From NCBI GenBank assembly GCA_018396705.1, contig JAGTQZ010000005.1:1-42901 (forward strand): a stretch of DNA of 42,901 bases, written 5' to 3'. Of this stretch, positions 23,232 to 42,438 are shown piece after piece (the first letter of the stretch is position 1; each line of letters starts with the position of its first letter). This stretch comes from Candidatus Bathyarchaeota archaeon (lineage in GTDB: Archaea > Thermoproteota > Bathyarchaeia > Bathyarchaeales > Bathycorpusculaceae). The notes below the pieces were generated by a model that worked only from the letters and a program-made list of their open reading frames with translations, made no database searches and was not told the DNA's origin. The translations under genes and the position numbers were made by a program.

Positions 23232-23247
23232 CGCATTCACCCTCCGT

Positions 23248-24261: not shown

Positions 24262-24303
24262 ATGAATCCCCGTGCTCAGAAAGGACACACTGGATGGTTA
24301 TGA

Positions 24304-26478: not shown

Positions 26479-27321
26479 TTAAGCCCATGTTGTTACTCCA
26501 CCGTCTATGAAAAGCACCTGCCCCGTTACGAAATTTGACGCATCAGAAGCAAAATACACTACCGCACCTATTAGGTCGTCAGGATATGCCCATCGGCCCA
26601 TTCTGATTCTAGAAAGCATTGACTTAGAAAGTTCTGGGTCACGCATTATATGTGCAGTGAGTGGGGTTGCCACAACTGTCGGTGCTATACAATTGACTTG
26701 AATATTGAAAGGAGCCCATTCACAAGCTAATTGTCTGGTAATCATTATTACAGCAGCCTTGCTAGTGCAGTAAGCGATGTAGTTTCTCGGCATGCCGAAG
26801 ACCCCTCTGACCGATGAAATATTAATTATTTTTCCCCTTCTCTGCCTTATCATAACTTTGCCGACTTCTTGGCATGTTAAAAACACCCCATTAACGTTAA
26901 CGTCCATGACTTTTTTCCAATCCTCAAATGGATAATCTTCAGCTGGTTTTGGAATATTCATTCCAGCATAGGTTACCAGTATATCTATTCTTCCGAAATT
27001 GTCCACCACTTGTTTGACCATATTTTTAACTTCCTCAGGCTTTGTTACATCACAACTGATTGCCATGGATTTTCGTCCGAGTTTCTCGATTTCACTCTTA
27101 ACTTTTTCAAGTTTTGTAAGATCCCTAGCCACTACCACCACATTTGCGCCAAAATCTGCGAGACCTAAGGCCGTTGGCCTCCCTAAACCCCCGCTTCCAC
27201 CCGTAACTATGGCAACTTTATCTTTCAAGTCAAAGAGCTTTTGGAAACCCATTGAACCGCTCTTTATGCGCTCTTCCAATACACGTTCATATTCTTCAGA
27301 TGACGTGAATGAAGCATTCAT
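26479..27321 (-). CDS. SDR-family oxidoreductase, candidate phloroglucinol reductase
   Basis: A classical SDR with cofactor motif TGGSGGLG (40-47), NISS (167-170), catalytic YCTSK (Y184, K188) and C-terminal FIDGG. A 30-residue N-terminal extension precedes the Rossmann fold. The NNAG motif reads TYAG here. VVVVARDLTKLE after strand 2 has an arginine (R66), as in NADP-dependent members. The ATG at 27321 overlaps the cupin stop codon (ATGA), so the two are translationally coupled; an upstream start at 27351 is less likely. Bacterial phloroglucinol reductases that make dihydrophloroglucinol are NADPH-dependent SDR-type enzymes, so this is the best candidate here. The family is certain; the substrate is inference. 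Confidence 0.88.
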   Translation of the reverse strand: MNASFTSSEEYERVLEERIKSGSMGFQKLFDLKDKVAIVTGGSGGLGRPTALGLADFGANVVVVARDLTKLEKVKSEIEKLGRKSMAISCDVTKPEEVKNMVKQVVDNFGRIDILVTYAGMNIPKPAEDYPFEDWKKVMDVNVNGVFLTCQEVGKVMIRQRRGKIINISSVRGVFGMPRNYIAYCTSKAAVIMITRQLACEWAPFNIQVNCIAPTVVATPLTAHIMRDPELSKSMLSRIRMGRWAYPDDLIGAVVYFASDASNFVTGQVLFIDGGVTTWA

Positions 27322-27674
27322 TTTTTGCCACCGCTTTTCGGATAGCTGCAAATAACCAGCATGCTCGCAGGCATATTTGTCTTGTTAATTAAGTAACGCT
27401 TCTCACCCGGTGGTATGTAGAGAGAGTCAAAAGGCTCTAGCACTATTTCTTTACCATCTTCAGTTGTTATAGTAACCTTCCCAGAAAGCATCACGTAAAC
27501 TTTTTCGAAATCGCTTGCGGACATTTCTGCTCCCCCGCCTGGAAGGAAGTGTGAGAGACCAACCCAGAAGTTCTCTACACCCGTGGTTTCTTTATGTTGA
27601 AGTCGCAGGGCAACCATGTTAAAGTGACCTGCTGCTGCATATGGTTTAGCCTCTTCCAATTTTACCTTCTTCAT
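27318..27674 (-). CDS. Cupin-domain protein
   Basis: A 118-residue single cupin with VENFWVGLSHFLPGGGAEMS (cupin motif 1 region), FEKVYVMLSGKVTI and SLYIPPGEKRYLINKT (motif 2). The first motif lacks the canonical HxH; the nearest histidine is in LSHFL. Metal binding may therefore differ or be absent. It overlaps the SDR gene by four bases and follows BKACE by about 50 bp. It could be a small isomerase or hydratase for a pathway intermediate, or a ligand-binding accessory. Confidence 0.78.
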   Translation of the reverse strand: MKKVKLEEAKPYAAAGHFNMVALRLQHKETTGVENFWVGLSHFLPGGGAEMSASDFEKVYVMLSGKVTITTEDGKEIVLEPFDSLYIPPGEKRYLINKTNMPASMLVICSYPKSGGKK

Positions 27675-27724: not shown

Positions 27725-28690
27725 TTAATATTTCTTAGGCTCCTTGGGTAATCCAAGCATTTCTCTTGCTTGCGCTGGCGTCGCTATTGGACGGTCCAAT
27801 TCCTTGGCAATTCTAACAATCCTTTCAACAAGTTGCGCGTTACTTTTAGCTAATTCTCCTTTCCGGTAAAATATATTATCTTCGAGACCTACTCTTACGT
27901 GAAGCCCCATAGCAATAGCTATTGTCGCAAGAGGAAGTTGAAAAGCACCGATACCTATTACGCTGACCACCGAGTTTGGAGGAACATGATACAACATTGA
28001 CATCAAATTCTGAGGTGTCGGCAACACCGCACTCGGAGCACCCATAACAAACTGGAAGAGGAAAGGTGGACGGATGAGATTCTTTTCCAATAGATTATAA
28101 ACCAATTGGAATTGTCCTTGATGATAAACCTCTAGTTCAGGTTTAATATTCTTCTCCAACATTCTTTGCGCATATAGTTCAGTTTCCCTCCAAGAGAAAG
28201 TTGGCGGCCAAACACTATCCATCATTATGTCCTCAGGTCTTCCAGAAAGCGGGGGCTCTCTCTTCTTCAAAAGCATCTTCCAAGCGAGAGGACCCATATT
28301 AAGACTAGCAATCTCCGGGTCGGCCTCAAGGGACCTCATCCTCTCTTCGGTGGTTAATTGCCCAAGTCCCCCTCCCGTTGTATTGTTAATTATTATGTCA
28401 GGACATAATTCTCTAATCTTCTTGTTTATTTTACGGTAATCTTCTGGATCAATGGAGGGACTAGCATAACCTTTTTTGGGATCCCTCGCGTGAATGTGAA
28501 CGATAGACGCTCCGGCTTTATACGCTTCATAGGCTTGCTGAGCTTGCTCCTCCGGAGTTTCAGGCAAATTTGGGTTAACCTCTTTTCCATGAACACCGCC
28601 TGTTAAGGCTACAGATATTATTAGTGGAGGTAATTCCCCTGCTCGAACTAATCTTAAATACTCTCGAGGGTCGTTATAATTCCAAGCCAT
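27725..28690 (-). CDS. BKACE-family beta-keto acid cleavage enzyme, candidate triacetate acetoacetate-lyase
   Basis: A TIM-barrel zinc enzyme (DUF849/BKACE). LIISVALTGGVHGKEVNP opens the barrel, and the metal-binding HxH is in ASIVHIHARDP (H65, H67 from ATG 28690). IINNTTGGG, LEVYHQGQF, PFLFQFVMG, SVIGIGAFQLPLA and HVRVGLEDNI are hallmark segments. BKACE enzymes condense a beta-keto acid with acetyl-CoA, giving acetoacetate and a new acyl-CoA. In bacterial phloroglucinol breakdown a member cleaves triacetate (3,5-dioxohexanoate). The adjacent hydroxyacid dehydrogenase-like gene and the AACS support this assignment. The start at 28690 is preferred over 28756 because homologues begin near the YNDPREYL segment. 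3-Dehydrocarnitine or 3-keto-5-aminohexanoate cleavage remain alternatives. Confidence 0.9.
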   Translation of the reverse strand: MAWNYNDPREYLRLVRAGELPPLIISVALTGGVHGKEVNPNLPETPEEQAQQAYEAYKAGASIVHIHARDPKKGYASPSIDPEDYRKINKKIRELCPDIIINNTTGGGLGQLTTEERMRSLEADPEIASLNMGPLAWKMLLKKREPPLSGRPEDIMMDSVWPPTFSWRETELYAQRMLEKNIKPELEVYHQGQFQLVYNLLEKNLIRPPFLFQFVMGAPSAVLPTPQNLMSMLYHVPPNSVVSVIGIGAFQLPLATIAIAMGLHVRVGLEDNIFYRKGELAKSNAQLVERIVRIAKELDRPIATPAQAREMLGLPKEPKKY

Positions 28691-28837
28691 ATGCTTAACA
28701 CCTACCCAATCTTGTAAACAAAAAGGCTTAAAAACGTTTATTTTAGAGCGATGCATTTCATCGGAAGATCTTTCAGAAAAATTTGGAGTAAGGAATTATA
28801 AAAAATGTTTTAAAAGATTATCACCGTTTCCAATTAA

Positions 28838-29821
28838 TTATTGTTGTTCTCTAAATTGTTGTTCTCTAAACTTAAGTAATCCTCTGCTTTTTAGTTGCTC
28901 TATGAGCCATTCGTTTCTCCGTTTCACCACTTCCTCTATCGACCTGCTTGTATAATCGTAGAAGCCTTTTCCTGTTTTGATTCCGAGCTCGTTCGTTTCC
29001 ACTTTATGTTTAAGAAGGTTTGGAGGTTTAAACTTGTCTCCTAGAGTGTTGTAAAGATACGTGTACGCATAAAGGAAGGTATCCATGCCTCCAAGATCCA
29101 CTATCTCCAACGGACCAAGAATTGGAAGCCTCAACCCAAGGGTCATCTTTACAGCAGTATCTATATCCTCGGCGGATGCAAGTCCTTGCTCCAACATTGA
29201 GATAGCTTCTATAACAAGGGCTGCTTGAAGTCTTACGCCTAAAAATCCAGGAGAATCTTTACATACAACTGGCACTTTGCCTAGCTTTGTAATTAGATCT
29301 CTTGTAATCTCAATGGTTTCTTGCGAAGTTCGTTCTCCTTTAACTATTTCAACTAATGGCATAAGGTGTGGGGGGTTCCACCAGTGGGTTCCGATAACTT
29401 TGTCAGGTCTGCTAGTTACGGAAGCCAGTTCCGTTATACTGAAGGACGATGTATTTGAAGCGAGGATTGTGTGTTTAGGACACGTATCGTCTAATTCTTT
29501 AAAGATGCTCTTTTTCAAATCCATATTTTCAACAACAGCTTCTATGACAAAATCGGCATCTTTAGCAGCTTCAGAGATTGTTTCTTTGAATTCTATTCTG
29601 GAAAGGGCCTTTTCCACCTCTTTCTGTGTAATTATTCCATTCCTCACTAAAAACTCCAAACCGGATTTTATTTGGTCGTATGTCTCCTTAAAAAGCTCTC
29701 GGCGTCTCCGAGTAATTGTTGTCTGATAACCGGTCAATGCACATGTTTGAGCGATACCATGCCCCATGATCCCCGCACCAATGACCGCAATCTTTCGAAT
29801 TTCCGAATCTTTCCCAAACAT
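28838..29821 (-). CDS. 3-Hydroxyacyl-CoA dehydrogenase family protein, candidate 3-hydroxy-5-oxohexanoate dehydrogenase
   Basis: The Rossmann motif GAGIMGHG (15-22) is followed by FVIEAVVENMDLKK and LASNTSSFSITELA. The catalytic region is GTHWWNPPHLMPLVEIVKG (H146, N149, E158). The C-terminal 3HCDH domain contains GLRLPILGPLEIVDLGG and GIKTGKGFYDY. After strand 2 the expected acidic residue is replaced by arginines (TITRRRRE), which suggests NADP(H). L-carnitine dehydrogenase shows that this family can act on free 3-hydroxy acids. Next to BKACE, oxidation of 3-hydroxy-5-oxohexanoate to triacetate is likely. The C-terminus ends in a tandem FREQQ repeat. GGGGGAAT precedes the ATG. Confidence 0.88.
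   Translation of the reverse strand: MFGKDSEIRKIAVIGAGIMGHGIAQTCALTGYQTTITRRRRELFKETYDQIKSGLEFLVRNGIITQKEVEKALSRIEFKETISEAAKDADFVIEAVVENMDLKKSIFKELDDTCPKHTILASNTSSFSITELASVTSRPDKVIGTHWWNPPHLMPLVEIVKGERTSQETIEITRDLITKLGKVPVVCKDSPGFLGVRLQAALVIEAISMLEQGLASAEDIDTAVKMTLGLRLPILGPLEIVDLGGMDTFLYAYTYLYNTLGDKFKPPNLLKHKVETNELGIKTGKGFYDYTSRSIEEVVKRRNEWLIEQLKSRGLLKFREQQFREQQ
28841..28870. repeat. Perfect 15-bp tandem duplication in the 3' end of the dehydrogenase gene
   Basis: The unit ttgttgttctctaaa occurs twice in tandem and encodes a repeated FREQQ at the C-terminus just before the stop. It looks like a recent slippage or duplication event that keeps the frame. Confidence 0.85.
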
Positions 29822-29984: not shown

Positions 29985-30917
29985 TTAGAGCGGTGGCTTT
30001 AGCTTCAACCTAAGTTTTCTTGAAATAACTCCCCATATTCCCTCCGGAAGCATCAGCAAGATTGCTAAGACAATGATCCCTTCTAACAGAAGGCTGAGAC
30101 CGATATACTGGGAGAGTAAATATCCAAGCGTCACGAATATAACACTGCCTATAATGGGACCAAATATCGTACCAACTCCACCAATAACAGCAACAAAAAG
30201 GAAATTTACAGTCCAAGAAATACTAAAGGCGGACGTGGGATGTAAATATGTGTGGTGGATAGCGTTAACTGCCCCCACAAGAGTTGTTACAAATGACGCT
30301 AAAACAAAACACAGCGCCTTACACCTGAAAGTGTTAACTCCTAAACCTAAAGCAGCATCTTCATCTTCGCCTATGCTTCTTAAACCGAACCCTAGTTTAG
30401 AATGGTAAAGGAAATATACAAGGAAAATCGAGAATATTCCCAGAACTAAGGCAGGATAGTACAGGATAACTGTTGAAACATAATAGGCTTCTCTAAAAAC
30501 TAATCCTTTACCAGCACCAACGAATTCCCAGCCGTTAAAGAAGAGTCTAATAACCTCAGCAGCAAGGAAGGTGCCTATTGCAAAGTAAACGCCACGCAAT
30601 CTCAGAAGCGGAAAAGATAACGCTGCCGCCAGCAGGCTTCCAATTAAACTAGCGATTATTACACTTGTCCACATCGGCACTCCATAATACATGACGAGAA
30701 CAGCTGTTGTGTAGCCTCCAACACCCATAAAAATCTGTTGACCGAGAGATACTATCCCCGCATGTTTAGCCATAAAACCCCAAACTTCAGCAGCTGCCAA
30801 ATACAGCAATATCAGTATTAAAGCGTCTCTTAAAAATCCACCAACCCAAAGAGGCAGCGATGCCATTAAAGCAAGTATGACAATTATGTAGATATGCTGT
30901 TTTCTAAATTGAATCAT
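29985..30917 (-). CDS. livM: LIV-type ABC transporter permease (LivM-like)
   Basis: A branched-chain-amino-acid-type (HAAT family) permease with about nine hydrophobic helices. Family segments are SLGQQIFMGVGGYTTA, LRLRGVYFAIGTFLAAEV, GLRSIGEDEDAALGLGVN (the EAA-like loop contacting the ATPase) and VIGGVGTIFGPIIGS. ATG 30917, with GGAGG upstream, starts just after the LivH stop at 30919. HAAT systems in anaerobes often import aromatic acids and other small organic acids, not only amino acids. This fits an uptake role for the island's substrate. Confidence 0.92.
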   Translation of the reverse strand: MIQFRKQHIYIIVILALMASLPLWVGGFLRDALILILLYLAAAEVWGFMAKHAGIVSLGQQIFMGVGGYTTAVLVMYYGVPMWTSVIIASLIGSLLAAALSFPLLRLRGVYFAIGTFLAAEVIRLFFNGWEFVGAGKGLVFREAYYVSTVILYYPALVLGIFSIFLVYFLYHSKLGFGLRSIGEDEDAALGLGVNTFRCKALCFVLASFVTTLVGAVNAIHHTYLHPTSAFSISWTVNFLFVAVIGGVGTIFGPIIGSVIFVTLGYLLSQYIGLSLLLEGIIVLAILLMLPEGIWGVISRKLRLKLKPPL

Positions 30918-30918
30918 C

Positions 30919-31794
30919 TTATAGTTTCCCTCCAAAAATTCCCTGAGGCCTCAGGTAAAGAATTGCCAAGATTACAAGGTAACAGAACATCAACTGGAAG
31001 CGGGATCCAAACAAGTAGCCTCCAAAAACTAATGCTTCACCCATGATAAAACCGCCAACAAGAGAGCCTTTAAGGCTTCCTAAACCTCCCATAACAACAA
31101 CTCCAAAAGACAACAACACGTATGTAGGGCCCGTGTCTGGATAGAAAGTGAAGGTCATACCTAAAAGCACACCAGCAATCCCAACAACCAGTAAGGCTAA
31201 TCCAGCGGCATAATTGTAAACAACTTCAGATTTTATTCCAAGCATCTTAGCAGCTTCTGGATCAAATGGCACAGCCCGCATAGCTTTGCCTAGATAAGTT
31301 TTCTTGAAAAACAAGAAAACAGCAATGAACACTATTAAAGCTGAAACGAAACCTAAGAGATAACGTGGAGAGGGGCTCAAGCCCAATACATCAATGTTGA
31401 TAAGCATGTAGCTTGGAATTATGCTTCGGGCATCTGCAGTGAACACTAAAAGCAGAATATTTTGTATTACAATGCTTAAGGCAAAGGTTACCAAGACTGG
31501 TTGATTCCCACCCATCGGAAGCACCCTATTTATCGTAAACTTTTGGAACAAATATCCCACAGCAAACATTATCGGTGCAACAATCAATATGCTTAGAAGC
31601 GGATCCATTCCCAGAAAGTCCATTATAGTAAATGACAAATACGCGGCTAAAATTGCAAAGTCACCGTGTGCTATATTTATAACTCTCATTATTCCAGCAA
31701 GCACAGATAAACCAAAAGCTGCCAGAGCAAAAAGTCCTCCAAGCAGAAAACCGTTGAATAGCAAGTTTATAATGTTTAAAATGTTTACATCCAT
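30919..31794 (-). CDS. livH: LIV-type ABC transporter permease (LivH-like)
   Basis: A HAAT-family permease: NLLFNGFLLGGLFALAAFGL at the N-terminus, VINIAHGDFAILAAYLSF, KAMRAVPFDPEAAKMLGI (cytoplasmic loop) and LLSFGVVVMGGLGSLKGSLV. I chose ATG 31794 (GAGG close upstream) because it begins one base after the LivF stop, and the longer frame from 31863 adds an unlikely basic leader. With LivM it forms the membrane channel of the transporter encoded here. Confidence 0.92.
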   Translation of the reverse strand: MDVNILNIINLLFNGFLLGGLFALAAFGLSVLAGIMRVINIAHGDFAILAAYLSFTIMDFLGMDPLLSILIVAPIMFAVGYLFQKFTINRVLPMGGNQPVLVTFALSIVIQNILLLVFTADARSIIPSYMLINIDVLGLSPSPRYLLGFVSALIVFIAVFLFFKKTYLGKAMRAVPFDPEAAKMLGIKSEVVYNYAAGLALLVVGIAGVLLGMTFTFYPDTGPTYVLLSFGVVVMGGLGSLKGSLVGGFIMGEALVFGGYLFGSRFQLMFCYLVILAILYLRPQGIFGGKL

Positions 31795-31795
31795 T

Positions 31796-32509
31796 TTATT
31801 CCTCACCCAGATAGGCTTTTTTGACACGTTCGTCTTTAAGGAGTGTTTGGGATGGACCATCAATCACTATTCTGCCATTCTCAAGAACAAAACCTCTGTC
31901 TGAGTTTGCAAGCGCACGGTCTGCATATTGTTCGACGAGAAGAATAGTGACGCCTTCATCGCGTATTTTATTTATAATATCATATATTTTTATCACTATT
32001 TTCGGAGCAAGCCCTAACGAAGGTTCATCCAATATCAGAAGCTTAGGCTTAGACATTAAACCCCGTGCTATGGCAAGCATTTGTTGCTCCCCGCCACTCA
32101 TGCATCCGGCGATCTGAGATTGCCTTTCCTTAAGTATAGGAAAAAGGTTGAAAACCCATTCAAGAGCGTCCTTTAATTCCTTTCTTGTTTCTGAAGCATA
32201 TGCACCAAGCTCAAGGTTTTCTCTCACTGTCATGTGGCCAAAAATCCTCCTACCTTCTGGTACGATGGTTATCCCCTGCCTTATGATTTCCGGTATGGAA
32301 ATTTTGTCTATTCGCTTTCCAAGGAAAGTTATTGATCCGCTTTTTGGGCTTAATACCCCAATAATAGTTTTACAAAGAGTTGTCTTACCAGACCCATTAG
32401 AACCAATTAATGTCGCAATCTCTCCCTTATTAACATTGAGGGACACATTCCAGAGGACTTGCAATTCACCATAGAAAACGTTTATGTTACGTACTTCAAG
32501 CATATGCAT
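31796..32509 (-). CDS. livF: LIV-type ABC transporter ATPase (LivF-like)
   Basis: A 237-residue ABC ATPase: Walker A GSNGSGKT, Q-loop region IVPEGRRIFGHMTVRENLEL, signature CMSGGEQQMLAIARGLM, Walker B LLILDEPSLGLAP, switch histidine replaced by glutamine in LLVEQY (normal for LivF). The VPEGR block is diagnostic for LivF. It lies 4 bp downstream of LivG and one base upstream of LivH, so translation is tightly coupled. Confidence 0.94.
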   Translation of the reverse strand: MHMLEVRNINVFYGELQVLWNVSLNVNKGEIATLIGSNGSGKTTLCKTIIGVLSPKSGSITFLGKRIDKISIPEIIRQGITIVPEGRRIFGHMTVRENLELGAYASETRKELKDALEWVFNLFPILKERQSQIAGCMSGGEQQMLAIARGLMSKPKLLILDEPSLGLAPKIVIKIYDIINKIRDEGVTILLVEQYADRALANSDRGFVLENGRIVIDGPSQTLLKDERVKKAYLGEE

Positions 32510-32513
32510 CGCC

Positions 32514-33236
32514 TTAGATTACCCATTTTTCCCCAAGATATGCCTCTATTACCCTTTGGTTACTTGTGACTTCCTCAAAGGAGCCTTCAGCAATTTTCTC
32601 TCCATAGTTTAAAACTATCACGCGTTCCACAATGCCTCGCAAAGCCTTCATGATATGTTCAACCCAAAATACGGTAACACCGAAATCATCTCTGATCCGT
32701 TTAATTAAGTCTTTGGCATCATTGATCTCTTTTGGGTTTAACCCGCTTAATGGTTCATCAAGCAACAGGATTTTAGGTTTTGTAGCAAGAGCTCGCGCTA
32801 TCTCCAGAAATTTACGTTCACAAATGTTAAGGTTACGTGCAGGTACATCTTTCTTATGATCCAGTCCAACAAACCTTAAATACTCGAGACTTTCACTGCG
32901 ACTTTTACTTAATCCATTTCCAGCCCCATATAACGCGCCGACCATCACATTTTCGAGAACGCTCATGTTTAGAAATGGTCTCACAAGTTGATAAGTCCTC
33001 GCGATACCCATTCGACAAATTTTATGCGACGGGAGGCCAGTAATATCCTCACCCATAAACTTTATTTTGCCTGAATCCGGTTTATAAACGCCTGAAATGA
33101 GATTAAATAGGGTTGTTTTTCCAGAACCGTTAGGTCCAATTAAGCCGACAACTTCCTTTTCATTGACCTTAAAACTTACGTCTTTAATGGCCTCCAAAGC
33201 TCCGAAACGCTTTATCAGACCAGTCCCTTCAAGCAT
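32514..33236 (-). CDS. livG: LIV-type ABC transporter ATPase (LivG-like)
   Basis: A 240-residue ABC ATPase: Walker A GPNGSGKT, MGIARTYQLVRPFLNMSVLE (LivG-type Q-loop), Walker B ILLLDEPLSGLNP and H-loop FWVEH. The signature motif is degenerate (LNICERKFLEIARAL rather than LSGGQ). It is the first gene of the 16-kb minus-strand island and faces a divergent promoter region shared with the MoaD-like gene. It powers import with LivF, LivH, LivM and the binding protein at 33747. Confidence 0.92.
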   Translation of the reverse strand: MLEGTGLIKRFGALEAIKDVSFKVNEKEVVGLIGPNGSGKTTLFNLISGVYKPDSGKIKFMGEDITGLPSHKICRMGIARTYQLVRPFLNMSVLENVMVGALYGAGNGLSKSRSESLEYLRFVGLDHKKDVPARNLNICERKFLEIARALATKPKILLLDEPLSGLNPKEINDAKDLIKRIRDDFGVTVFWVEHIMKALRGIVERVIVLNYGEKIAEGSFEEVTSNQRVIEAYLGEKWVI

Positions 33237-33389: not shown

Positions 33390-33677
33390 TTGATAACAAT
33401 CAAGATTCGAGCTCTTTTTCATCTAAAAGACATGCTTGGTGCAAGAGAGCTAACGCTAAAACTGAAGGAAGGTGCAACAATTAAAGATCTAATCCAAATT
33501 CTAATCGAGCGGTATGGAGATAAAGTTGAAAGCGTCTTAATAGGACCCAACGGGAAACTAAATCCAATAATAACAATTCTGGTTAATGGCCTACAAATAG
33601 ACTTTTTCAATGGAATTAACACAACACTTGCAGATGGCGACACAGTTTCATTTATTCCTCCAGTAGGTGGAGGATAA
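33390..33677 (+). CDS. MoaD/ThiS-family sulfur-carrier protein
   Basis: A 95-residue ubiquitin-fold protein: ALFHLKDMLGARELTLKLKE at the N-terminus, ILVNGLQIDFFNG and GDTVSFIPPVGGG at the C-terminus. The terminal diglycine, to be thiocarboxylated, is the sulfur donor in pterin dithiolene synthesis. The TTG start is supported by TTGAGGA upstream. A carrier in this island fits demand for tungsto/molybdopterin by two AOR proteins and the transhydroxylase. Archaeal MoaD paralogues of this type often neighbour AOR genes. Confidence 0.86.
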   Translation: MITIKIRALFHLKDMLGARELTLKLKEGATIKDLIQILIERYGDKVESVLIGPNGKLNPIITILVNGLQIDFFNGINTTLADGDTVSFIPPVGGG

Positions 33678-33746
33678 TAGTCAGTTTTGTTGCTAAAAAC
33701 TTAAAAAGAACAAGCGTTTTAAGACTCTATGCGAGGGATTGAAGTT

Positions 33747-35084
33747 ATGAAAAGGACAGCAGCTGCTATGACAAAAGTTCAAGCGACAATCGTCATCGTT
33801 GTAGTTGTGGTGGCTGCTGTTGTTATTGGGGCATACTACTTTTTGATGCAACCTTCCGGACCAGAATATATCAAAATTGGCTGGCCAGCACCTATTACAG
33901 GAGTGCTCGCTGGTTTTGCAGAAACCACACCTTGGGTCGTTCAGCAGGTTGAGGATTATGTTAATAAAGAGTTAGGCGGTGTGCACCTATCGGAGTATAA
34001 CAGAAAAGTGTTCATAAAAGTGATTCTGAGAGATACCAAAAGCGACAGTGACCAAGCAGCAACCATAGCGGCCGAACTAATAACAAAAGAGAACATTGAT
34101 ATAATGTTGGCTTTGTACTCTCCAGCTATGACCAATCCTATAAGCGCACAATGTGAAAAATACGGAGTACCTTGCATAGTTTCTCAAACGATAATAATAT
34201 CATGGTTGATGGGCGGACCCTACGAATGGTCATACTGTATAGGTCTGGCTGAACCAGACTATGCGGTGCTATTCTTTGACTTATTTGATTCAGCAGGAGA
34301 GCAAGTAAACAAAATTGTAGCCATGATCAATGCAGATGACCCTGATGGCAGAGGCTATTCAGAATCAATAAATAGGGTTGCAGCCGCACGCGGGTACACA
34401 ATTGTGGACGCAGGACTGGTGCCATATGGTACATCTGATTATTCGTCATATATTTATACATGGAAGAGCGCTAACGCACAAATTCTAACGGGTAACATGC
34501 GCTCTGTGGAGTTCGCGGCTCTCTGGAGACAATGTAACGAGTTGGGCTATAAGCCAAAAATCGTCGCGATGTCGAGGGCTTTACTATTTCCGTCATGGGT
34601 TGAGGCAATCGGCGGCGATCTTCCTAATGGACTAATAGGGTACACATGGTGGTCAGGATATCATCCTTACAGATCATCTATTACAGGTCAGACCACAAGC
34701 CAGTTGATCGAGGCTTGGGAATCTTACAGTAAAAAACAGTGGACACCAGTTTTAGGGCTTACTCACTGCGTGCTTGAAGTGGCGATAGACGCTGTTAAGA
34801 GGGCTGGAAGCCTTGACAAAACAAGAATAAAAGAAGCCTTGGCTAACATAAACTTGAATACAATCGCTGGACCTATCAATTTCAAGGCTCCGTTAACACC
34901 TCAACAACAAGCACGTTACCAGGCGGTCTCAAGTCTTATACAATATAAAGACCATTATGTGGTTGTGAAACCGGTGGCTATCCAGTGGGTAAAAGGGACA
35001 AAGTGGCCTTGGGAAATGCAAATAATTTACAACTGGGAGAGCCCAGAAATACCTGAAACTGCAGAAATGTTTCTCTTAAGCTAA
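33747..35084 (+). CDS. LIV-type ABC transporter substrate-binding protein, membrane-anchored
   Basis: A Peripla_BP_6-type receptor. Residues near the N-terminus (TIVIVVVVVAAVVIGAYYFL) form a single membrane anchor or signal, after which KIGWPAPITGVLAGFAETTP begins the receptor domain. DTKSDSDQAATIAAELITKE and later FAALWRQCNELGYKPKIVAM are family blocks. ATG 33747 has GAGGGAT upstream, and is preferred to ATG 33729. It faces away from the other four transporter genes across a shared divergent region. The ligand is likely an aromatic or hydroxylated acid by context. Confidence 0.88.
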   Translation: MKRTAAAMTKVQATIVIVVVVVAAVVIGAYYFLMQPSGPEYIKIGWPAPITGVLAGFAETTPWVVQQVEDYVNKELGGVHLSEYNRKVFIKVILRDTKSDSDQAATIAAELITKENIDIMLALYSPAMTNPISAQCEKYGVPCIVSQTIIISWLMGGPYEWSYCIGLAEPDYAVLFFDLFDSAGEQVNKIVAMINADDPDGRGYSESINRVAAARGYTIVDAGLVPYGTSDYSSYIYTWKSANAQILTGNMRSVEFAALWRQCNELGYKPKIVAMSRALLFPSWVEAIGGDLPNGLIGYTWWSGYHPYRSSITGQTTSQLIEAWESYSKKQWTPVLGLTHCVLEVAIDAVKRAGSLDKTRIKEALANINLNTIAGPINFKAPLTPQQQARYQAVSSLIQYKDHYVVVKPVAIQWVKGTKWPWEMQIIYNWESPEIPETAEMFLLS

Positions 35085-35107: not shown

Positions 35108-35792
35108 CTAACATTCCCGAAGTGCTTTAATGTAGTTTCTTGAAGTGGTAACCCAGCCGAAAAGTTGTTTAATATTCCATAGAGTTGCTCTCCTTGTATA
35201 TTTTGGCCCTGTGGCTGCACAGCAATCAGATATTAGAACGGGCCAAAAATCCTTTGAAAATGCGTCGCGAATTGTGGATTCAACGCAAATGTTTAAAGCA
35301 ATTCCAGTGAAAAACAGATATTTTACACCTAAACTTTTTAGTATGTCCTCTAATTCTGTGTTAGTAAAGCCACTGTACCTTTGTTTATCGATAATAAAAT
35401 CCCCCGCCAAGGGTTTAATTTCATCAATGATTTCAGCACCCCATGTTCCTTTGATTAACAGTTTATCCTTGAGTTCCGGACTTTTACGCATTAACAGTAG
35501 GCTGTATTCTTTCCAATAATTGGGGGAGTTTTGACTTCCAGCGTCAGATAGATCTGGCGAGTATACATGCCTCACATATATTATCTTTAAACCCAGCTTC
35601 CTTGAAATATCTAAAACGTCCTTGGTGGGTTTGATTACGCGTCTAAATTTTGACAAGTCAAAGCCAATTATGTCAAACATTCCGCCAGGACTTACAAATG
35701 CGTTTTGCATATCTACTACGATAACTGCGGACTCTGTAAGCTTTACTGACAGGTTCTGGATCAGCTAATATTGTTATAGCTTCTCTTTCCAT
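35108..35792 (-). pseudogene. Isochorismatase-family cysteine hydrolase with N-terminal frameshift
   Basis: The intact frame (35710 to 35108) starts at MQNAFVSPGG, just after the position of the catalytic aspartate. The family core VVDMQNAF shows that the true N-terminus lies upstream: in frame, IQNLSVKLTESAVIVVD precedes that M but has no start codon. An ATG at 35792 with AGGGTTTGAT begins MEREAITILADPEPV, the typical family leader, in another frame. One extra base near 35740-35750 would explain the break. Lysine (LLIKGTWG) and cysteine (ALNICVES) of the Asp-Lys-Cys triad are intact. Members hydrolyse amides or isochorismate-like compounds. It may be real decay or an assembly error. Confidence 0.7.
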
Positions 35793-35902: not shown

Positions 35903-36949
35903 ATGATCATTAATAAGGTGTTACGTGTGGAAATAGTAGACTTTGAAGCCCACTTCTACACGAAAGAATATGTTAAAACTCTACTGAAAAATGAGGACCA
36001 CCCAAAATATAAAAAAGATGAAACAACGAGCACCTACTGGCTGTGGTACACTCCCCACGTGCAAGAGCCGCATACCGAACAACTGTTAGAAAGACTTCTC
36101 GACGTGAATGAAAAACGTATCAAAGATATGCATGATGCTGGAGTAAAAATGCAAGTTCTCAGCCTCTCTGCTCCAGGATGTGAACAATTTGAAGCTTCAA
36201 TAGGAAAAAAGCTTGCTAGAAAAGTCAATGACGAACTTGCCTCAGTTATTGAAAGAAAACCAGATAGATTTGTCGGATTAGCTGCACTTGCCCCACAAGA
36301 TCCAGGTGAGGCTGCTGATGAACTTGAGCGCGCTGTGAAAGAGTTAGGTCTTAGAGGGTGGAAAACTCACTCTAACATCCGTGGAGCCTACATTGATGAT
36401 AAGAAATACTGGGTTATATTTGAAAAGGCAGAAAAGTTAGGGGTTCCAATATTTCTACATCCTACCGTTCCAACAATAGATGTGCTCAGTGATACATATG
36501 GATATGCGTTAGCTGGACCAGCTTTCGGTTTCACCTTTGATACAGCACTATGCATGATGCGTTTAATCCTGAGTGGAATCTTTGATAGGTACCCGAATCT
36601 AAAGATTGTGCTAGGCCACTTTGGCGAAACCATGCCTTTCCTACTAAACCGTCTAGACTTTCCAATTGTAAGACCATGGGTTGCTAAAAACGTAGATATT
36701 AAAATCTCAAAAAAGCCAAGTGATTACTTTAAGAGCAATGTGTACGTGGCTACAAGCGGCGAATTCCATAATCCTGCAATTATGTGTACCCTTCAGGTAA
36801 TGGGCTGTGATAGAGTGTTGTTCGCTTCAGATTATCCTTATGAAGATTCAATGAAAGCTGTTGAACGTGTTAAAGCATTACCATTACCAGAAGAAGAAAA
36901 AAGTAAGATATGCCACTTGAATGCGAAAACCTTACTAAATATACGTTAA
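35903..36949 (+). CDS. Amidohydrolase-family hydroxybenzoate decarboxylase (gamma-resorcylate/2,3-DHB decarboxylase-like)
   Basis: A 348-residue metal-dependent TIM barrel. The first metal ligands are E15-A-H17 (VDFEAHF), the E-x-H pattern of 2,6- and 2,3-dihydroxybenzoate decarboxylases, not the H-x-H of hydrolases and ACMSD. H186 (FLHPTVP), H239 (LGHFGE) and D310 (FASDYPYE) complete the site. Blocks VLSLSAPGCEQF, RFVGLAALAPQDP and LILSGIFDRYPNLKIVLGH are typical. Members remove CO2 non-oxidatively from hydroxybenzoates. In this island it could make pyrogallol from a trihydroxybenzoate for the transhydroxylase. A TATA-like aataaattta about 25-35 bp upstream suggests a leaderless or short-leader transcript; GTG 35927 is an alternative start. 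Confidence 0.85.
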   Translation: MIINKVLRVEIVDFEAHFYTKEYVKTLLKNEDHPKYKKDETTSTYWLWYTPHVQEPHTEQLLERLLDVNEKRIKDMHDAGVKMQVLSLSAPGCEQFEASIGKKLARKVNDELASVIERKPDRFVGLAALAPQDPGEAADELERAVKELGLRGWKTHSNIRGAYIDDKKYWVIFEKAEKLGVPIFLHPTVPTIDVLSDTYGYALAGPAFGFTFDTALCMMRLILSGIFDRYPNLKIVLGHFGETMPFLLNRLDFPIVRPWVAKNVDIKISKKPSDYFKSNVYVATSGEFHNPAIMCTLQVMGCDRVLFASDYPYEDSMKAVERVKALPLPEEEKSKICHLNAKTLLNIR

Positions 36950-37028: not shown

Positions 37029-38876
37029 ATGGCTCACGGGTACGCTGGCAAAATACTTTGTGTGGACTTGTCAACTAGAGAAGTGTATACAAAAAATCTT
37101 GATGCAGATTATGTTTACCCAGTAATTGGCGGGGCAGGACTAGGCATAAAAATCCTGTACGATGAAGTTGATCCAAAAGAGGACCCATTATCTCCGAAAA
37201 ACAAGTTAATATTTTCTGTCGGGCCGCTAGTGGGCTCTGGGACACCATGCACCAGCAGAATGGCAGTTGTGGCAAAGTCTCCGTTGACTGGTACCGTTGG
37301 GATGTCGCTCTCCGGCGGGTATTTTCCGGCGGAGCTTAAATTTGCAGGATACGATGCAGTGGTGATTTCTGGGAAAGCTGATACCCCAGTCTATATTTGG
37401 ATAGAAGACGACAAAGTAACCATTAGCGATGCATCTGGCCTGTGGGGACTCACAACCACAGACACTCAAATCGTACTGAAAGAAAAACTTAACAGACCAG
37501 ATGCAAAGATCGCGTGTATAGGACCTGCTGGTGAGAAACTTGTTCGATATGCTTGTATAATAAACGAGAGGAGAGCTGCTGGAAGAAAGGGCTTAGGAGC
37601 TGTGATGGGTTCAAAGAACCTGAAAGCTATAGCAGTTAAAGGAACAAATAAAGTGAAACCAGCTGATGAAGGCAGATTTAGAAAAGCCATCAAGAAAATG
37701 CATGAATTAATGAAACAGAGCCCAGTACTTTATCCATCCTTTTCAAAAATGGGCACCCCAATGACGGTGGAAGTTACTGCAGAATTAGGAATTTTACCAG
37801 CAAAAAACTGGACAGCCACAGGCATTTTTGCTCCGGTAGAAACTCTAGGCGGAGAAACGCAATCAACCTATACAATCACTAGAGTTGGTTGTTATGGATG
37901 CCCAGTGAGATGCGGACAAGTAAAACTAGTCAAGCAAGGCCCGTTTGCCGGGTTTATGACGGAAGGCCCAGAGTTTGAGTCAACCTATAGTCTAGGAACT
38001 ATGGTTGGTGTTAACTACTTTCCAGCGGTAATAGCAGCTGACAGATTATGTGATGAATACGGATTAGATACTATTTCAACAGGGGCTACTGTGGCATTTG
38101 CTATGGAACTCGTGGAAAAAGGCATTCTATCGCGAGATGAGGTAGACGGCTTAGATTTAACCTTCGGCAATTACGAAGCCTTCTTGAAGATGATTAGAAA
38201 GATAGCGTTCAGAGAAGGTTTCGGAAGCGTATTGGCAGAAGGAGTAAAACAAGCAGCAAAAATAATCGGCAGAGGCTCTGAGAGATACGCGTTACACATC
38301 AAAGGCATGGAACTCCCAGGATATGATGTTAGAGGGGCAAAAGCTCACGGATTAAGTTACGCTACCGCATACACCGGAGCAGATCACAATAGAGGCTACG
38401 CGATACAGGAAATTTTCAATGTGCCAGTTCCGTACAAGGTTGACAGATTAGCCATAGAAGGTAAAGGCAGGCTATGTAAATGGAATCAGGACGTCAGAAC
38501 AGCAGTTTGTGATTGTATGCCTCTTTGCGTGTTCGTATTTGACATGGGATTAGCGGCGAACGCCCTAGAGCTTACCGCTGAGCTTTATGAGGCGTTAACG
38601 GGTCTAGAGATAAAGGCTGAAGAAGTGCAAAAAGCGGGAGAAAGAGTGAATAATATTGCAAGGTTATTCAACGTTAAGGCTGGATTCACAAGGAAAGATG
38701 ACGTCTTACCAGCGAGACTCATGGAAGAGGGAATACCGGGAGGACCATCAAAAGGTCAAATGGTCAGTATTGAAGATTTAAACAAAATGTTAGATGAGTA
38801 CTACGATGCTAGAGGGTGGGACAAAGAAACAGGGATACCGACAAAAGAAAAGCTATCTGAACTGGGAATAAAATGA
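37029..38876 (+). CDS. Aldehyde:ferredoxin oxidoreductase family tungstoenzyme (AOR 2)
   Basis: The second AOR-family protein of the window: GYAGKILCVDLSTREVYTKN and FSVGPLVGSGTPCTSRMAVV in the N-terminal domain, Fe-S cysteines in VGCYGCPVRCGQ (C288, C291, C295), a later CDCMPLC, and the C-terminal GGPSKGQMVSIEDLNKMLDE. ATG 37029 has GGTGAT at good spacing; a TTG two codons earlier is less likely. It differs throughout from AOR 1, so they are diverged paralogues rather than a recent duplication. It lies between the decarboxylase and the PhlG-like gene. It may oxidise or reduce an aromatic aldehyde/acid, or supply reduced ferredoxin. Confidence 0.9.
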   Translation: MAHGYAGKILCVDLSTREVYTKNLDADYVYPVIGGAGLGIKILYDEVDPKEDPLSPKNKLIFSVGPLVGSGTPCTSRMAVVAKSPLTGTVGMSLSGGYFPAELKFAGYDAVVISGKADTPVYIWIEDDKVTISDASGLWGLTTTDTQIVLKEKLNRPDAKIACIGPAGEKLVRYACIINERRAAGRKGLGAVMGSKNLKAIAVKGTNKVKPADEGRFRKAIKKMHELMKQSPVLYPSFSKMGTPMTVEVTAELGILPAKNWTATGIFAPVETLGGETQSTYTITRVGCYGCPVRCGQVKLVKQGPFAGFMTEGPEFESTYSLGTMVGVNYFPAVIAADRLCDEYGLDTISTGATVAFAMELVEKGILSRDEVDGLDLTFGNYEAFLKMIRKIAFREGFGSVLAEGVKQAAKIIGRGSERYALHIKGMELPGYDVRGAKAHGLSYATAYTGADHNRGYAIQEIFNVPVPYKVDRLAIEGKGRLCKWNQDVRTAVCDCMPLCVFVFDMGLAANALELTAELYEALTGLEIKAEEVQKAGERVNNIARLFNVKAGFTRKDDVLPARLMEEGIPGGPSKGQMVSIEDLNKMLDEYYDARGWDKETGIPTKEKLSELGIK

Positions 38877-38943: not shown

Positions 38944-39573
38944 TCATTTATTGGTTGTAATAGCATATAAATATGGAAGAATTGTGGCAAGGTTTCTCAT
39001 TTCCTCTACACAATGTTGGAAAAGATTTTTGGCCATCTCGTAGTTCGCGTAGTTCGGATTTAGCCAGAACCTGCTTCGCATTTCGCACCCGACATCTCTG
39101 TCCCTAACAAAGTGAGTCATACGGCCAATTTCAACCTCAATTTTTTCATTTCTTAAAAACAAGTGCGCACAAATAGCGGTTGCCCTCGCCTCCTCAAATC
39201 TTGACGTGTCGTAAAATTTTGATGGTTCTTGGAAGTGGATTCTTAATTTTGCAGCTGGTGGTTTGCCGCCTAACGTCTCTTCAACTATGTGGCTTGCCCC
39301 AATGTAATGCCCAGGTTTCCATTGGTCGTCCCAAGCGCCATAAAGATGATCTATTGGATGCCAAAGTTTGTAGATTTGCGTGTGTTCCTTTGGAGATAAC
39401 CCATACGCAAACCACCACTCTATCATTTCCCTCTTGCAATAGGGCATCCTTGTAAGTACCGCCACAAGATAATAGCCATTGGACAGACGCATGTAACCGC
39501 TCTCAAACGGCAAGTAGCCAGGTTCAAGGAGACGGTTAATTTGCTCGAACGGCAACTCTAAATCTTTTAGCAT
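38944..39573 (-). CDS. PhlG-like (DAPG hydrolase family) C-C hydrolase, candidate dihydrophloroglucinol cyclohydrolase
   Basis: A 209-residue protein with the DAPG-hydrolase pattern: MPYCKREMIEWWFAYG, YKLWHPIDHLYGAW (H72, H76), HYIGASHIVEE (E98, E99), MTHFVRDRDVGCEMRSRFWL (H154, E164) and LFQHCVEEMRNLA. PhlG is a zinc enzyme that cleaves an acyl C-C bond of 2,4-diacetylphloroglucinol, a beta-diketone-type hydrolysis. Dihydrophloroglucinol is also a cyclic 1,3-diketone, so this protein is the best candidate for its ring-opening hydrolase. The protein is shorter than PhlG (about 296 aa), mostly at the N-terminus. GGGGGAG lies upstream of the ATG. It is divergent from the transhydroxylase gene, so the two may share a promoter region. 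Confidence 0.83.
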   Translation of the reverse strand: MLKDLELPFEQINRLLEPGYLPFESGYMRLSNGYYLVAVLTRMPYCKREMIEWWFAYGLSPKEHTQIYKLWHPIDHLYGAWDDQWKPGHYIGASHIVEETLGGKPPAAKLRIHFQEPSKFYDTSRFEEARATAICAHLFLRNEKIEVEIGRMTHFVRDRDVGCEMRSRFWLNPNYANYEMAKNLFQHCVEEMRNLATILPYLYAITTNK

Positions 39574-39813: not shown

Positions 39814-42438
39814 ATGGAGGAAAAGCGCTTGCACGAACCCGAGAGGGAATTCGGTAAAAAACTTGAGGATGGAACAAATATCTTTACTAGTTGTACAGTC
39901 GGTGGGCCTGTTTTTGTATATGTTAAAGATGGGAAAATTAAGCGAGTCACTCCTATAATATTTGGGCCGGATGATGCTGAGTCGTGGACCATTGAGGCTA
40001 GAGGTAGGAGTTTTTCTCCTCCAAGGAAAGCTTTGCTCGCTCCGTATGTTTACACCGTCAGGTCTAGGGTTTACTCTCCGGAAAGAGCGCTTTATCCGCT
40101 TAAGAGGGTAGATTTTGATCCAGACGGTGATAGACATCCAGAAAACAGGGGCAAATCGGGGTATGAGCGTATTAGTTGGGAGGAAGCCCTAACAATAGTC
40201 ACGAACGAGATGCAACGTATAAAACGGAAATATGGTGCCGCAGCCATTGCAGCTACAACTTCATCCCATCATGAATGGGGAAACATTGGATATCGACACA
40301 GCGCCTTCTATAGATTCTTCAATCTTCTAGGTTTTACGTATGTTGAACATAATCCGGATAGTTGGGAAGGATGGCACTGGGGTGCAATGCATCATTGGGG
40401 TTTCTATTGGAGGTTAGGTGTGCCGGAGCAGTACGACTTGTTGGAAGATGCATTGAAAAATTGTGAAATGATTGTTTTTTGGTCCTCCGATCCGGACTCA
40501 ACGCGCGCGATAGGCTATCAGGGATACGAATCTGCTCCATGGCGGCAGTGGTTAAGAGATTTAGGAGTGAAAATGGTTTTCATAGATCCATATTACAACT
40601 ATACTGCAGTATTGTTTGCTGATAAATGGCTTGCTCCCCGACCGGGAACCGATACTGCTCTTGCGCTGGCAATAGCATATGTCTGGATCACCGAGGAGAG
40701 GTATGACAAAGAGTATGTGGCAACTCACACGTATGGCTTCGAGGAGTTTAAAAAATACGTTCTGGGAGAAGAAGATCAAACTCCTAAAACTCCAAAATGG
40801 GCTGAGGAATTAACAGGTATACCCGCAAGAGAAATAAGAGCTTTGGCGAGAGAGTGGGCCTCAAAAAGGACGATGTTGGCTGCCGGAGGGTTAGGTGGAT
40901 GGGGAGGTGCCTGCAGAGCAGCTTATGGGCATGAATGGGCCAGAATGATGGTTCTTTTGGCTGCAATGCAAGGGCTGGGAAAACCTGGAGTTAACATATG
41001 GGGAACCACAAAGGGAGCCCCATTCAATGCTGGCTTTTATTTCCCAGGATACGCAGAAGGTGGAATTTGTGGAGATCCTGACAAAACAGCTGCGACCTTT
41101 GAGTTGCTTGGAAGAGGAATGGTTAAGAAACCCACTGTATGTCGCATATTCCAGCACATACCCCGATTGAAACTCCCGGAAGCAATATTAAATCCCCCTG
41201 TCGAATGGAAAGCCAGAGGATTTAGCGGTGAATCGATAGAAAGCCAGTTTAGATCCTTTACATATCCCACGAAAGGTTATAATGAAGTGAAAATGTTATA
41301 CAGGTACGGTGGATCTTACATTGGCACCATGACGGAGACAAATAAATGGGCTCAAATGTACAGGAGCTCAAAATTGGAATTTGTTGTAAACCAGACAATG
41401 TTCGTTAATGAACCAGAAACAAAATTTGCAGATATCATATTACCCGCTTGTACACAATTTGAGCGTTGGGATATAGGTGAGTGGGCTAGTTGTTCAGGAT
41501 ACATACCACATTCTTCATGCGGGACAAATCATAGAGTTATTGTTCTTCAGATGAAATGCATAGAACCGCTGGGTGAATCTAAATCTGACTACCAAATATT
41601 TGCTGAAATAGCCAAAAGATTAGGTTTCTATGATGAATTCACCGAAGGAGGCATGACTGAGCTCGACTGGGTTAGAAGAATGTTTGATGTCAGCGACCTG
41701 CCAAAATATATAACATGGGAGGAATTCAAAAGAAAAGGTTACTTTGTCGTTCCACTTCCTAAGCCATATAGGCCTACCCCTGCATTACGCTGGTTCTATG
41801 AAGGCAGACCAAAGGATACACCTGATTGGGGTCCAGCTCCACGGGATAGCCCAATTAACCGGGTTGGCTTGCCGACACCAACTGGCAAAATAGAATTTGT
41901 TTCACAAACCCTCATGCGTTTTGACCCAAATGATAAAGAGAGACCACCACTGCCACGCTTTATTCCATCATGGGAGGGGCATCTAAGCGAACTTACCAAA
42001 AAATACCCATTGCAAATGGTTACTCCTCACCCTCGATATTCCTATCACACGCACCATGACGGTAAGGGAACATGGATAAACGAAATTCCAGAACATAGGG
42101 TGCTTAAAGAAGATGGACACTATTATTGGATTATTCGCATCAATCCTTTGGACGCTGAAGCTCGTGGAATTAAGGACGGTGACATAGTTAGGGTATACAA
42201 TGATAGAGGATCCGTCCTCTGCGTGGCAAAAGTAACACATAGAGTCAGACCGGGTGTTGTCCACGGATGGGAGTCATGCAACATCTATGAACCAATCGGT
42301 GAACCCGGTGATCCAAACTCGGTGGACCGTGGGGGCTGTCTAAACATACTAACGCCTTCAAGATATCAATCTAAAAATGCTTGCGGTATGGCGCCTAACT
42401 CTTGCCTAGTGGAAGTGGAGAAGTGGAGGGGACAGTAA
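39814..42438 (+). CDS. athL: Pyrogallol:phloroglucinol transhydroxylase-like molybdopterin oxidoreductase, large subunit
   Basis: An 874-residue DMSO-reductase-family protein almost the same length as the Pelobacter acidigallici enzyme (875). Segments such as GGPVFVYVKDGKI, SSHHEWGNIGYRHS, HNPDSWEGWHWG, GGLGGWGGACRA, FYFPGYAEGG and CSGYIP match it closely. The Mo-ligand serine is S183. Pocket residues equivalent to its H144, Y152, R153, D174, W176, W354, Y404, C557 and Y560 appear as H152, Y160, R161, D182, W184, W363, Y413, C560 and Y563. There is no N-terminal CxxCxxxC Fe-S motif and no Tat signal, as in that enzyme, so it is cytoplasmic. It would move a hydroxyl of pyrogallol to give phloroglucinol using a tetrahydroxybenzene co-substrate. 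The small subunit starts immediately after the stop. I matched residues from memory of the known enzyme; the substrate is inferred. Confidence 0.88.
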   Translation: MEEKRLHEPEREFGKKLEDGTNIFTSCTVGGPVFVYVKDGKIKRVTPIIFGPDDAESWTIEARGRSFSPPRKALLAPYVYTVRSRVYSPERALYPLKRVDFDPDGDRHPENRGKSGYERISWEEALTIVTNEMQRIKRKYGAAAIAATTSSHHEWGNIGYRHSAFYRFFNLLGFTYVEHNPDSWEGWHWGAMHHWGFYWRLGVPEQYDLLEDALKNCEMIVFWSSDPDSTRAIGYQGYESAPWRQWLRDLGVKMVFIDPYYNYTAVLFADKWLAPRPGTDTALALAIAYVWITEERYDKEYVATHTYGFEEFKKYVLGEEDQTPKTPKWAEELTGIPAREIRALAREWASKRTMLAAGGLGGWGGACRAAYGHEWARMMVLLAAMQGLGKPGVNIWGTTKGAPFNAGFYFPGYAEGGICGDPDKTAATFELLGRGMVKKPTVCRIFQHIPRLKLPEAILNPPVEWKARGFSGESIESQFRSFTYPTKGYNEVKMLYRYGGSYIGTMTETNKWAQMYRSSKLEFVVNQTMFVNEPETKFADIILPACTQFERWDIGEWASCSGYIPHSSCGTNHRVIVLQMKCIEPLGESKSDYQIFAEIAKRLGFYDEFTEGGMTELDWVRRMFDVSDLPKYITWEEFKRKGYFVVPLPKPYRPTPALRWFYEGRPKDTPDWGPAPRDSPINRVGLPTPTGKIEFVSQTLMRFDPNDKERPPLPRFIPSWEGHLSELTKKYPLQMVTPHPRYSYHTHHDGKGTWINEIPEHRVLKEDGHYYWIIRINPLDAEARGIKDGDIVRVYNDRGSVLCVAKVTHRVRPGVVHGWESCNIYEPIGEPGDPNSVDRGGCLNILTPSRYQSKNACGMAPNSCLVEVEKWRGQ

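Follow-up and report, generated by a model that had tools for sequence, protein, structure and literature searches.

A predicted E-x-H decarboxylase that may feed phloroglucinol breakdown in heat-loving archaea and some bacteria

Introduction

Does a predicted aromatic-acid decarboxylase encoded near a pyrogallol-phloroglucinol transhydroxylase supply that enzyme with pyrogallol? The question is raised by a locus of a Candidatus Bathyarchaeota archaeon, of which we analysed a stretch of 42,901 nucleotides (contig JAGTQZ010000005.1; hereafter the window). An earlier note on this DNA had proposed that an amidohydrolase-type decarboxylase turns an imported trihydroxybenzoate, for example gallate or 2,3,4-trihydroxybenzoate, into pyrogallol for the neighbouring transhydroxylase. 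The present analysis corrects this tempting reading, as proximity to the transhydroxylase does not make pyrogallol the product. Comparison across genomes suggests instead that, both in heat-loving archaea and in some bacteria, its product enters phloroglucinol breakdown directly.

A route for this breakdown has been described in Clostridium scatologenes, where a short-chain dehydrogenase (SDR) serves as phloroglucinol reductase (PGR), followed by a cyclase (DPGC), a dehydrogenase of the 3HCDH family (TfD) and a beta-keto-acid cleavage enzyme (BKACE; TAL) (PMC10470551). In the pathway account of that source, PGR reduces phloroglucinol directly, without carboxylation, and the pathway is also attributed to an archaeon, Archaeoglobus (PMC10470551).

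Results

The gene and its catalytic residues

The reading frame at 35903-36949 of the forward strand is open across 348 amino acids from an ATG at 35903, and its product matches the TIM-barrel domain Amidohydro_2 of Pfam at 1.6e-42 (146.7 bits, cut-off 26.4), indicating a real gene that is far from a chance frame. Translation probably starts at the GTG at 35927 (codon 9), giving 340 amino acids, because the 74% identical ortholog of a Calditenuaceae archaeon begins at the same position. Residue numbers used here count from the ATG at 35903; from the GTG at 35927, the leading pair would be E7/H9.

The protein holds E15-x-H17, H186, H239, E242 and D310, and these six residues are unchanged across the first four relatives aligned. 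The E15/H17 pair, likened in the earlier note to that of dihydroxybenzoate decarboxylases, is present and aligned; in a wider alignment E-x-H was kept in 10 of 16 rows, the other six having His first (three rows) or another residue (three rows). We infer that E15, H17, H186 and D310 are the metal ligands, with H239 and E242 adjoining.

A known decarboxylase class and an uncharacterised clade

Among solved structures, the best sequence matches were the 5-carboxyvanillate decarboxylase LigW (4icm, 6e-63), gamma-resorcylate (2,6-dihydroxybenzoate) decarboxylase (gamma-RSD; 2e-54 and 2e-49) and 2,3-dihydroxybenzoate decarboxylase (2,3-DHBD; 9e-43), with weaker matches to ACMSD (2e-25) and 4-oxalomesaconate hydratase (about 1e-9). 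LigW and gamma-RSD again ranked first when a profile built from four relatives was used. An AlphaFold2 model made from a 16-row alignment (mean pLDDT 89.4, pTM 0.91) aligned with LigW at Z 42.7 and 2.0 A over 322 residues, with 35% identity. The corresponding Z values were 41.0 for gamma-RSD, 39.2 for 2,3-DHBD, 38.2 for salicylate decarboxylase, 37.6 for iso-orotate decarboxylase and 36.8 for ACMSD, differences within 1 being counted as ties.

A tree of 23 rows split the E-x-H decarboxylases, including LigW, gamma-RSD and 2,3-DHBD (a side of 16 rows), from the ACMSD side with support of 100/100. Its archaeal rows came from 7 of the 18 genomes matching at 1e-30 (G000, G217, G344, G157, G134, G117 and G210), and its bacterial rows from all seven places listed, including L005 19744-20766, together with a weaker L005 relative (7847-8806); salicylate decarboxylase was left out. 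The window protein grouped with the decarboxylases, and the clustering with hydrolases or ACMSD that would have spoken against the earlier note was not found. Solved-structure matches, tree, model and structural alignment all bear out the class that the note had proposed. The protein is most likely a decarboxylase of the ortho-hydroxybenzoate class rather than a hydrolase, with catalysis predicted from sequence and model.

Within the tree, the window protein belongs to a six-row clade (support 86/85) with L004 of the Calditenuaceae genome, L060 (genome G753), L064 and L005 (both of the deltaproteobacterial genome G398) and L061 (genome G479). The clade contains no solved structure; the LigW pair forms a fork of its own (95/99) apart from it, and gamma-RSD sequences also cluster apart from the window protein. 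The class is a known one, and the clade is uncharacterised. A W-x-T-H stretch (W153, T155, H156) is common to all six clade rows; six solved relatives have other residues there, with Asn in place of the His. The modelled strand at 145-148 (340-residue numbering) ends at the clade His, much as the metal-ligand strands end at or near theirs, and H156 may touch the substrate. The column of LigW Arg58, with His in the window protein and Ala in the LigW of SYK-6, is poorly aligned or not defining. It was dropped as a specificity marker because two LigW sequences themselves disagree at it.

Candidate phloroglucinol-pathway genes surround the decarboxylase

The features of the neighbourhood are collected in Table 1.

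Table 1. Predicted genes flanking and including the decarboxylase, in window positions.
Feature	Position	Strand	Basis or remark
CoA-transferase pair	22458..24288	-	Family match
Acetoacetate--CoA ligase (AACS)	24422..26401	-	824.8 bits, equivalog cut-off 520.9
SDR, candidate PGR	26479..27351	-	Family match
Small cupin	27318..27674	-	In all three phloroglucinol clusters compared
BKACE, candidate triacetate acetoacetate-lyase (TAL)	27725..28756	-	PF05853
3-hydroxyacyl-CoA-dehydrogenase (3HCDH) family, candidate 3-hydroxy-5-oxohexanoate dehydrogenase (TfD)	28838..29821	-	Family match
LIV-type ABC importer LivG, LivF, LivH, LivM	29985..33236	-	78-82% identity to Calditenuaceae cluster
MoaD/ThiS-like protein	33390..33677	+	Named by sequence reading; homologs in G753 and G479 clusters
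LIV-type ABC importer substrate-binding protein	33729..35084	+	Family match
Isochorismatase-family hydrolase (RutB-like)	35108..35710	-	Homolog also in G753 cluster
E-x-H amidohydrolase-superfamily decarboxylase, predicted	35927..36949	+	Pfam, alignments, tree, model; 340 aa
AOR1, tungsten-type aldehyde:ferredoxin oxidoreductase	37029..38876 (ORF from TTG 37023)	+	Family match; 79 bp past decarboxylase (73 bp from the TTG)
PhlG/phloretin-hydrolase-like C-C hydrolase	38944..39573	-	PF18089; sole copy in genome
AthL, pyrogallol-phloroglucinol transhydroxylase large subunit	39814..42438	+	Sequence match to solved structure 4v4c
AthS, transhydroxylase FeS small subunit, cut off by contig end	42439..42901	+	Sequence

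The transhydroxylase had been named correctly: AthL matches the pyrogallol hydroxytransferase large subunit 4v4c at 1130 bits over 25-873, and the start of AthS follows directly. Its description as lying next to the decarboxylase holds for the neighbourhood and not for the gene order, as the two are separated by 2,864 bp that contain AOR1 and the PhlG-like gene. The product of the latter scored 160.7 bits against PF18089 (cut-off 22.7) and matched phloretin hydrolase 5xe5 at 6e-18; against the NCBIfam PhlG model it scored 54 bits, far under the cut-off of 600. The solved members of PF18089 are phloretin hydrolase and PhlG. PhlG releases phloroglucinol or acyl phloroglucinol from acylated forms. 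Phloretin hydrolase is described as releasing phloroglucinol from an acylated form (PMC10470551).

Candidates for the downstream steps were found at the family level. The BKACE scored 312.8 bits against PF05853, with 272.6 bits to the NCBIfam KCE model and 222.5 bits to that of 3,5-dioxohexanoate:acetyl-CoA transferase, both under their cut-offs. The PGR and TfD assignments are likewise family-level candidates in which the published motifs are not clearly recognised. By eye, the site of the PGR TR(S/N) motif reads ARD in the window SDR, GRN in L039 and SRN in L042, all lacking the Thr, and the TfD candidate, a 3HCDH family match, has Val at the usual place of the Asn (DSPGFLGVR) that completes the catalytic set His, Ser and Asn. 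DPGC is absent from the window; the same genome carries two such cyclases on contig C4, one of which adjoins another AthL gene, its product sharing 85% identity with the window AthL. The four DPGC-candidate cyclases examined all have H...H.D...H and a Trp-x-Tyr pair (W-P-Y), a pair reported for CsDPGC (PMC10470551).

Several further genes deserve mention. AthL is strikingly frequent for a genome of 1.7 Mb: in addition to the window gene there are two close copies, with 85 and 68% identity, and a further two with 43-44%. At L042 7257-12658 (contig C4), an AthL-like enzyme with 39% identity to AthL has its own AthS-like subunit and directly adjoins an SDR and a cyclase of the DPGC type. Its substrate may be another phenol, with the enzyme acting as hydroxytransferase or hydroxylase; a similar AthL-like gene occurs in G210 (L048). 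The window has two AOR genes (17336-19183 and 37023-38876) and the whole genome 10 PF01314 matches. The MoaD/ThiS-like protein probably serves the AOR pterin cofactor. Near AOR2, positions 19319-20155 encode another Amidohydro_2 protein, which opens with H-x-H and gave no NCBIfam match at 1e-10.

Counterparts of the cluster lack an AthL match

The 74% identical ortholog belongs to Ca. Calditenuaceae archaeon ILS 100 (locus L004; genome G217, 95% complete), which shares a phylum with the window genome and is placed in Nitrososphaerota by NCBI. Its cluster includes PhlG (75% identical to the window protein), the LIV importer, cupin (74%) and SDR (76%), as well as a DPGC-candidate cyclase, 3HCDH, two binding proteins and an acetoacetate-CoA ligase. 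An HMGL-like protein (L004 2041-3249) sits beside the 3HCDH at the place of the window BKACE; triacetate cleavage may differ in this cluster. AthL gave no match in G217 at 1e-20 and no first-look candidate, and AOR gave no match in that genome. A further cluster, in which nearly all of the window set recurs, was found in G753, a genome sampled from the same phylum as G398. It holds the decarboxylase (54% identity to the window), PhlG (56%), isochorismatase (45%) and AOR (57%), together with SDR, BKACE, cupin, LIV importer, MoaD and a cyclase 65% identical to that of G217; five G753 genes were confirmed by Pfam. At E≤1e-100, AthL had no match in G753, G479 or G592. The small cupin, which is not known to take part in the pathway, is kept in the window, at L004 404-778 and at L060 1494-1925, with 55-74% identity to the window copy.

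At E≤1e-70 the decarboxylase was found in seven genomes, three of which have AthL (G000, G398 and G658). We scanned 395 genomes of the phylum of G398 and found the decarboxylase (E≤1e-70) in 5, AthL (E≤1e-150) in 12 and DPGC (E≤1e-60) in 14. Of the five decarboxylase carriers, two also had AthL (P 0.008, above chance) and three also had DPGC (hypergeometric 0.0003); AthL and DPGC occurred together in nine genomes. These P values ignore relatedness and come from small counts. Ten of the 12 AthL-bearing genomes were without a decarboxylase at E≤1e-70. A strict functional pair of decarboxylase and AthL was rejected as a general rule, since some genomes with the decarboxylase gave no AthL match.

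A PF18089 gene was present in three of the seven decarboxylase-bearing genomes, as a single gene in each and in every case at most 2 kb from the decarboxylase. The odds of such closeness by chance are about 0.003 in G217 and 0.0015 in G753. The decarboxylase is thus linked to phloroglucinol breakdown at least as well as to AthL, and the link holds without AthL. PF18089 is absent from the G398, G479, G658 and G592 genomes, which carry decarboxylase relatives at 44-53% identity; given such relatives, the clade may accept a wider range of substrates. Those in G479, G398 and G658 lie near LIV or TRAP importers, without PhlG. G398 encodes three E-x-H decarboxylases with 49-53% identity (L005 9992-11011 and 19744-20766, L064 9368-10381), two of which adjoin genes reading like TRAP importers.

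When 398 genomes from the phylum of the window were scanned, 18 archaeal genomes had a decarboxylase match at 1e-30, and none was found at that threshold in the two other genomes of the same genus or in the same-family genomes listed. The gene has probably moved between lineages, because these near relatives lack a match that distant archaea and bacteria have.

Discussion

Substrate and proposed mechanism

As the decarboxylase travels with PhlG and the phloroglucinol pathway, it most simply makes phloroglucinol from 2,4,6-trihydroxybenzoate (phloroglucinol carboxylate). We give this reading, with its full mechanism and pathway, about an even chance (roughly 0.5). We observed its family, the conservation of its catalytic residues, its predicted fold, its clade, its gene neighbours and its presence in other genomes that have no AthL match; the substrate is called from gene context alone, and the mechanism is taken from the literature on relatives. 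The earlier note had named the 2,4,6- acid for assay only, yet it is this acid that fits the neighbours, the 2,3,4- acid fitting less well.

In this class, the carboxylate and ortho phenolate of the substrate are chelated by a metal, a conserved Asp donates a proton to the ipso carbon, and CO2 is released (PMC8187880, PMC6644310). By analogy, a divalent metal, probably Mn2+, would be held by E15, H17, H186 and D310 and would chelate the substrate carboxylate and ortho-phenolate; D310 would then protonate the ipso carbon, with release of CO2. The PhlG-like hydrolase encoded beside the decarboxylase would free phloroglucinol from C-acyl phloroglucinols. Phloroglucinol would then be converted anaerobically to acetoacetate and acetyl-CoA by PGR, DPGC, TfD and TAL, and the transhydroxylase would form a separate pyrogallol inlet to the same phloroglucinol pool.

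The proposed substrate has been described as a flavonoid metabolite (PMC7249170) and, under the name phloroglucinol carboxylic acid, as a catechin intermediate (PMC3877349). Its conversion to phloroglucinol is suggested in PMC6359708, in a passage that gives the acid as not reported as a quercetin catabolite. The literature searched yielded no decarboxylase gene for this conversion. If our reading is right, a gene would be assigned to a step discussed for flavonoid breakdown, and a polyphenol-fermenting gene set would exist in thermophilic archaea beyond Archaeoglobus and would be closely matched in a bacterium. 2,4,6-Trihydroxybenzoate decarboxylates spontaneously on heating, so a thermophile may need no enzyme for it.

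A possible link to aldehyde oxidation

The orthologous AOR near the decarboxylase in three genomes suggests a route in which AOR1 would pass electrons from phloroglucinaldehyde to ferredoxin, yielding 2,4,6-trihydroxybenzoate that the decarboxylase would then turn into phloroglucinol; we regard this oxygen-free, two-step removal of a formyl group as a doubtful proposal. Phloroglucinaldehyde (2,4,6-trihydroxybenzaldehyde) is a fragment of anthocyanins. It is tabulated as a cyanidin fragment (PMC13165170). The distance between decarboxylase and AOR is given for the window in Table 1 and is 2.2 kb in G753 and 5.0 kb in G479, with a MoaD-like gene near each. The three AORs form one ortholog group (57-75% identical, AOR1 being 57-61% identical to the other two), compared with about 39-42% identity to the other window AOR; the AOR near a G398 decarboxylase is of a different kind (about 44%). 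Counting AOR-bearing genomes, four of five clade loci have an AOR within 10 kb (Poisson P about 1e-4), or three of four when the window is excluded (P 0.0008), with AOR counts hand-rounded after merging of fragments from 22 to 20 in G753 and from 16 to 15 in G479. The route cannot be the only role of the decarboxylase, because G217 has no AOR match. Were it true, it would define, with PhlG, a shared archaeal and bacterial module for taking acyl, formyl and carboxyl groups off phloroglucinol rings.

Other substrates and products

Another ortho-hydroxybenzoate, for instance 2,6-dihydroxybenzoate (giving resorcinol) or a lignin-type acid such as that of LigW, is a tentative possibility. LigW and gamma-RSD are the closest solved relatives, the class is known for a broad substrate range and reversible reactions (PMC6644310), and the relatives of G479, G398 and G658 sit beside LIV or TRAP importers with no PhlG. 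Against this, the window clade branches away from LigW and gamma-RSD and has its own W-x-T-H stretch, at whose last position six solved relatives have Asn, and the three PhlG clusters indicate phloroglucinol.

Pyrogallol is an unlikely product. The decarboxylase would in that case act on 2,3,4-trihydroxybenzoate and hand pyrogallol to the transhydroxylase for conversion to phloroglucinol. This acid carries the required ortho hydroxyl, AthL and the beginning of AthS lie 2.9 kb downstream of the decarboxylase, and in G398 AthL and a clade decarboxylase share one contig, about 22 kb apart. However, pyrogallol made in G217 or G753 would meet no AthL, AthL being unmatched in those two genomes as well as in G479 and G592 at the thresholds given above; the decarboxylase is missing from most AthL genomes of the 395; and the PhlG neighbour indicates a 1,3,5-substituted ring. 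With a 74% ortholog and a 54% homolog in phloroglucinol clusters that have no AthL match, the earlier proposal that pyrogallol is fed to the transhydroxylase is weakly supported.

It is also improbable that the enzyme works in vivo as a carboxylase, or that it hydrolyses or hydrates a ring-opened intermediate. Class reactions are reversible, and Amidohydro_2 includes 4-oxalomesaconate hydratase and hydrolases, but in the known pathway PGR reduces phloroglucinol without carboxylation, and the hydratase match (about 1e-9) is far weaker than those to decarboxylases.

Gallate (3,4,5-trihydroxybenzoate), the usual pyrogallol source in tannin breakdown (PMC10470551) and suggested earlier as the substrate of a new gallate decarboxylase family, is very unlikely and was rejected on two grounds: a phenolic hydroxyl ortho to the carboxylation site seems mandatory for the class (PMC6644310), and none adjoins the carboxylate of gallate, the 2,3,4- and 2,4,6- acids both qualifying; and gallate decarboxylases characterised in the sources consulted are of UbiD/prFMN or AGDC1 type, whereas a Pfam search at 1e-3 gave Amidohydro_2 alone for the window protein. 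A UbiD gallate decarboxylase beside AthL was ruled out separately, as the genome has a single UbiD gene, and the contig that carries it (C6) is none of those with AthL genes (C4, C5 and C8).

Comparison with known systems

The preferred reading, formation of phloroglucinol from 2,4,6-trihydroxybenzoate, can be set against known enzymes and clusters. By sequence and by structure, LigW (4icm, 4inf/4qrn) is the nearest solved relative of the window protein, and its Glu19, His188, His241, Arg252, Asp314 and Tyr317 correspond to E15, H186, H239, R250, D310 and Y313. The LigW of N. aromaticivorans has Ala opposite H17, and LigW belongs to a separate clade. The metal site of gamma-RSD (2dvt, 3s4t), given as Glu8, His10, His164 and Asp287 (PMC8187880), corresponds to E15, H17, H186 and D310. 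Gamma-RSD differs from the window protein in overall sequence (34% identity), in having Phe opposite Tyr313 and Asn opposite His156, and in clade. 2,3-DHBD (6m53, 7a19) shares fold and class at 31% identity and groups in the tree with gamma-RSD rather than the window clade; salicylate decarboxylase (6jqw, 8h41) shares fold and class at 26% identity.

At the level of gene clusters, the four enzyme families of the C. scatologenes cluster all occur in the window genome, as the SDR, the cyclase on contig C4, the 3HCDH and the BKACE. The pathway account of PMC10470551 holds no amidohydrolase-type decarboxylase or AOR, its two mentions of a decarboxylase referring to gallate decarboxylase. The Mycobacterium clusters described there also carry a gene for phloretin hydrolase (DAPG_hydrolase), as the window does (PMC10470551).
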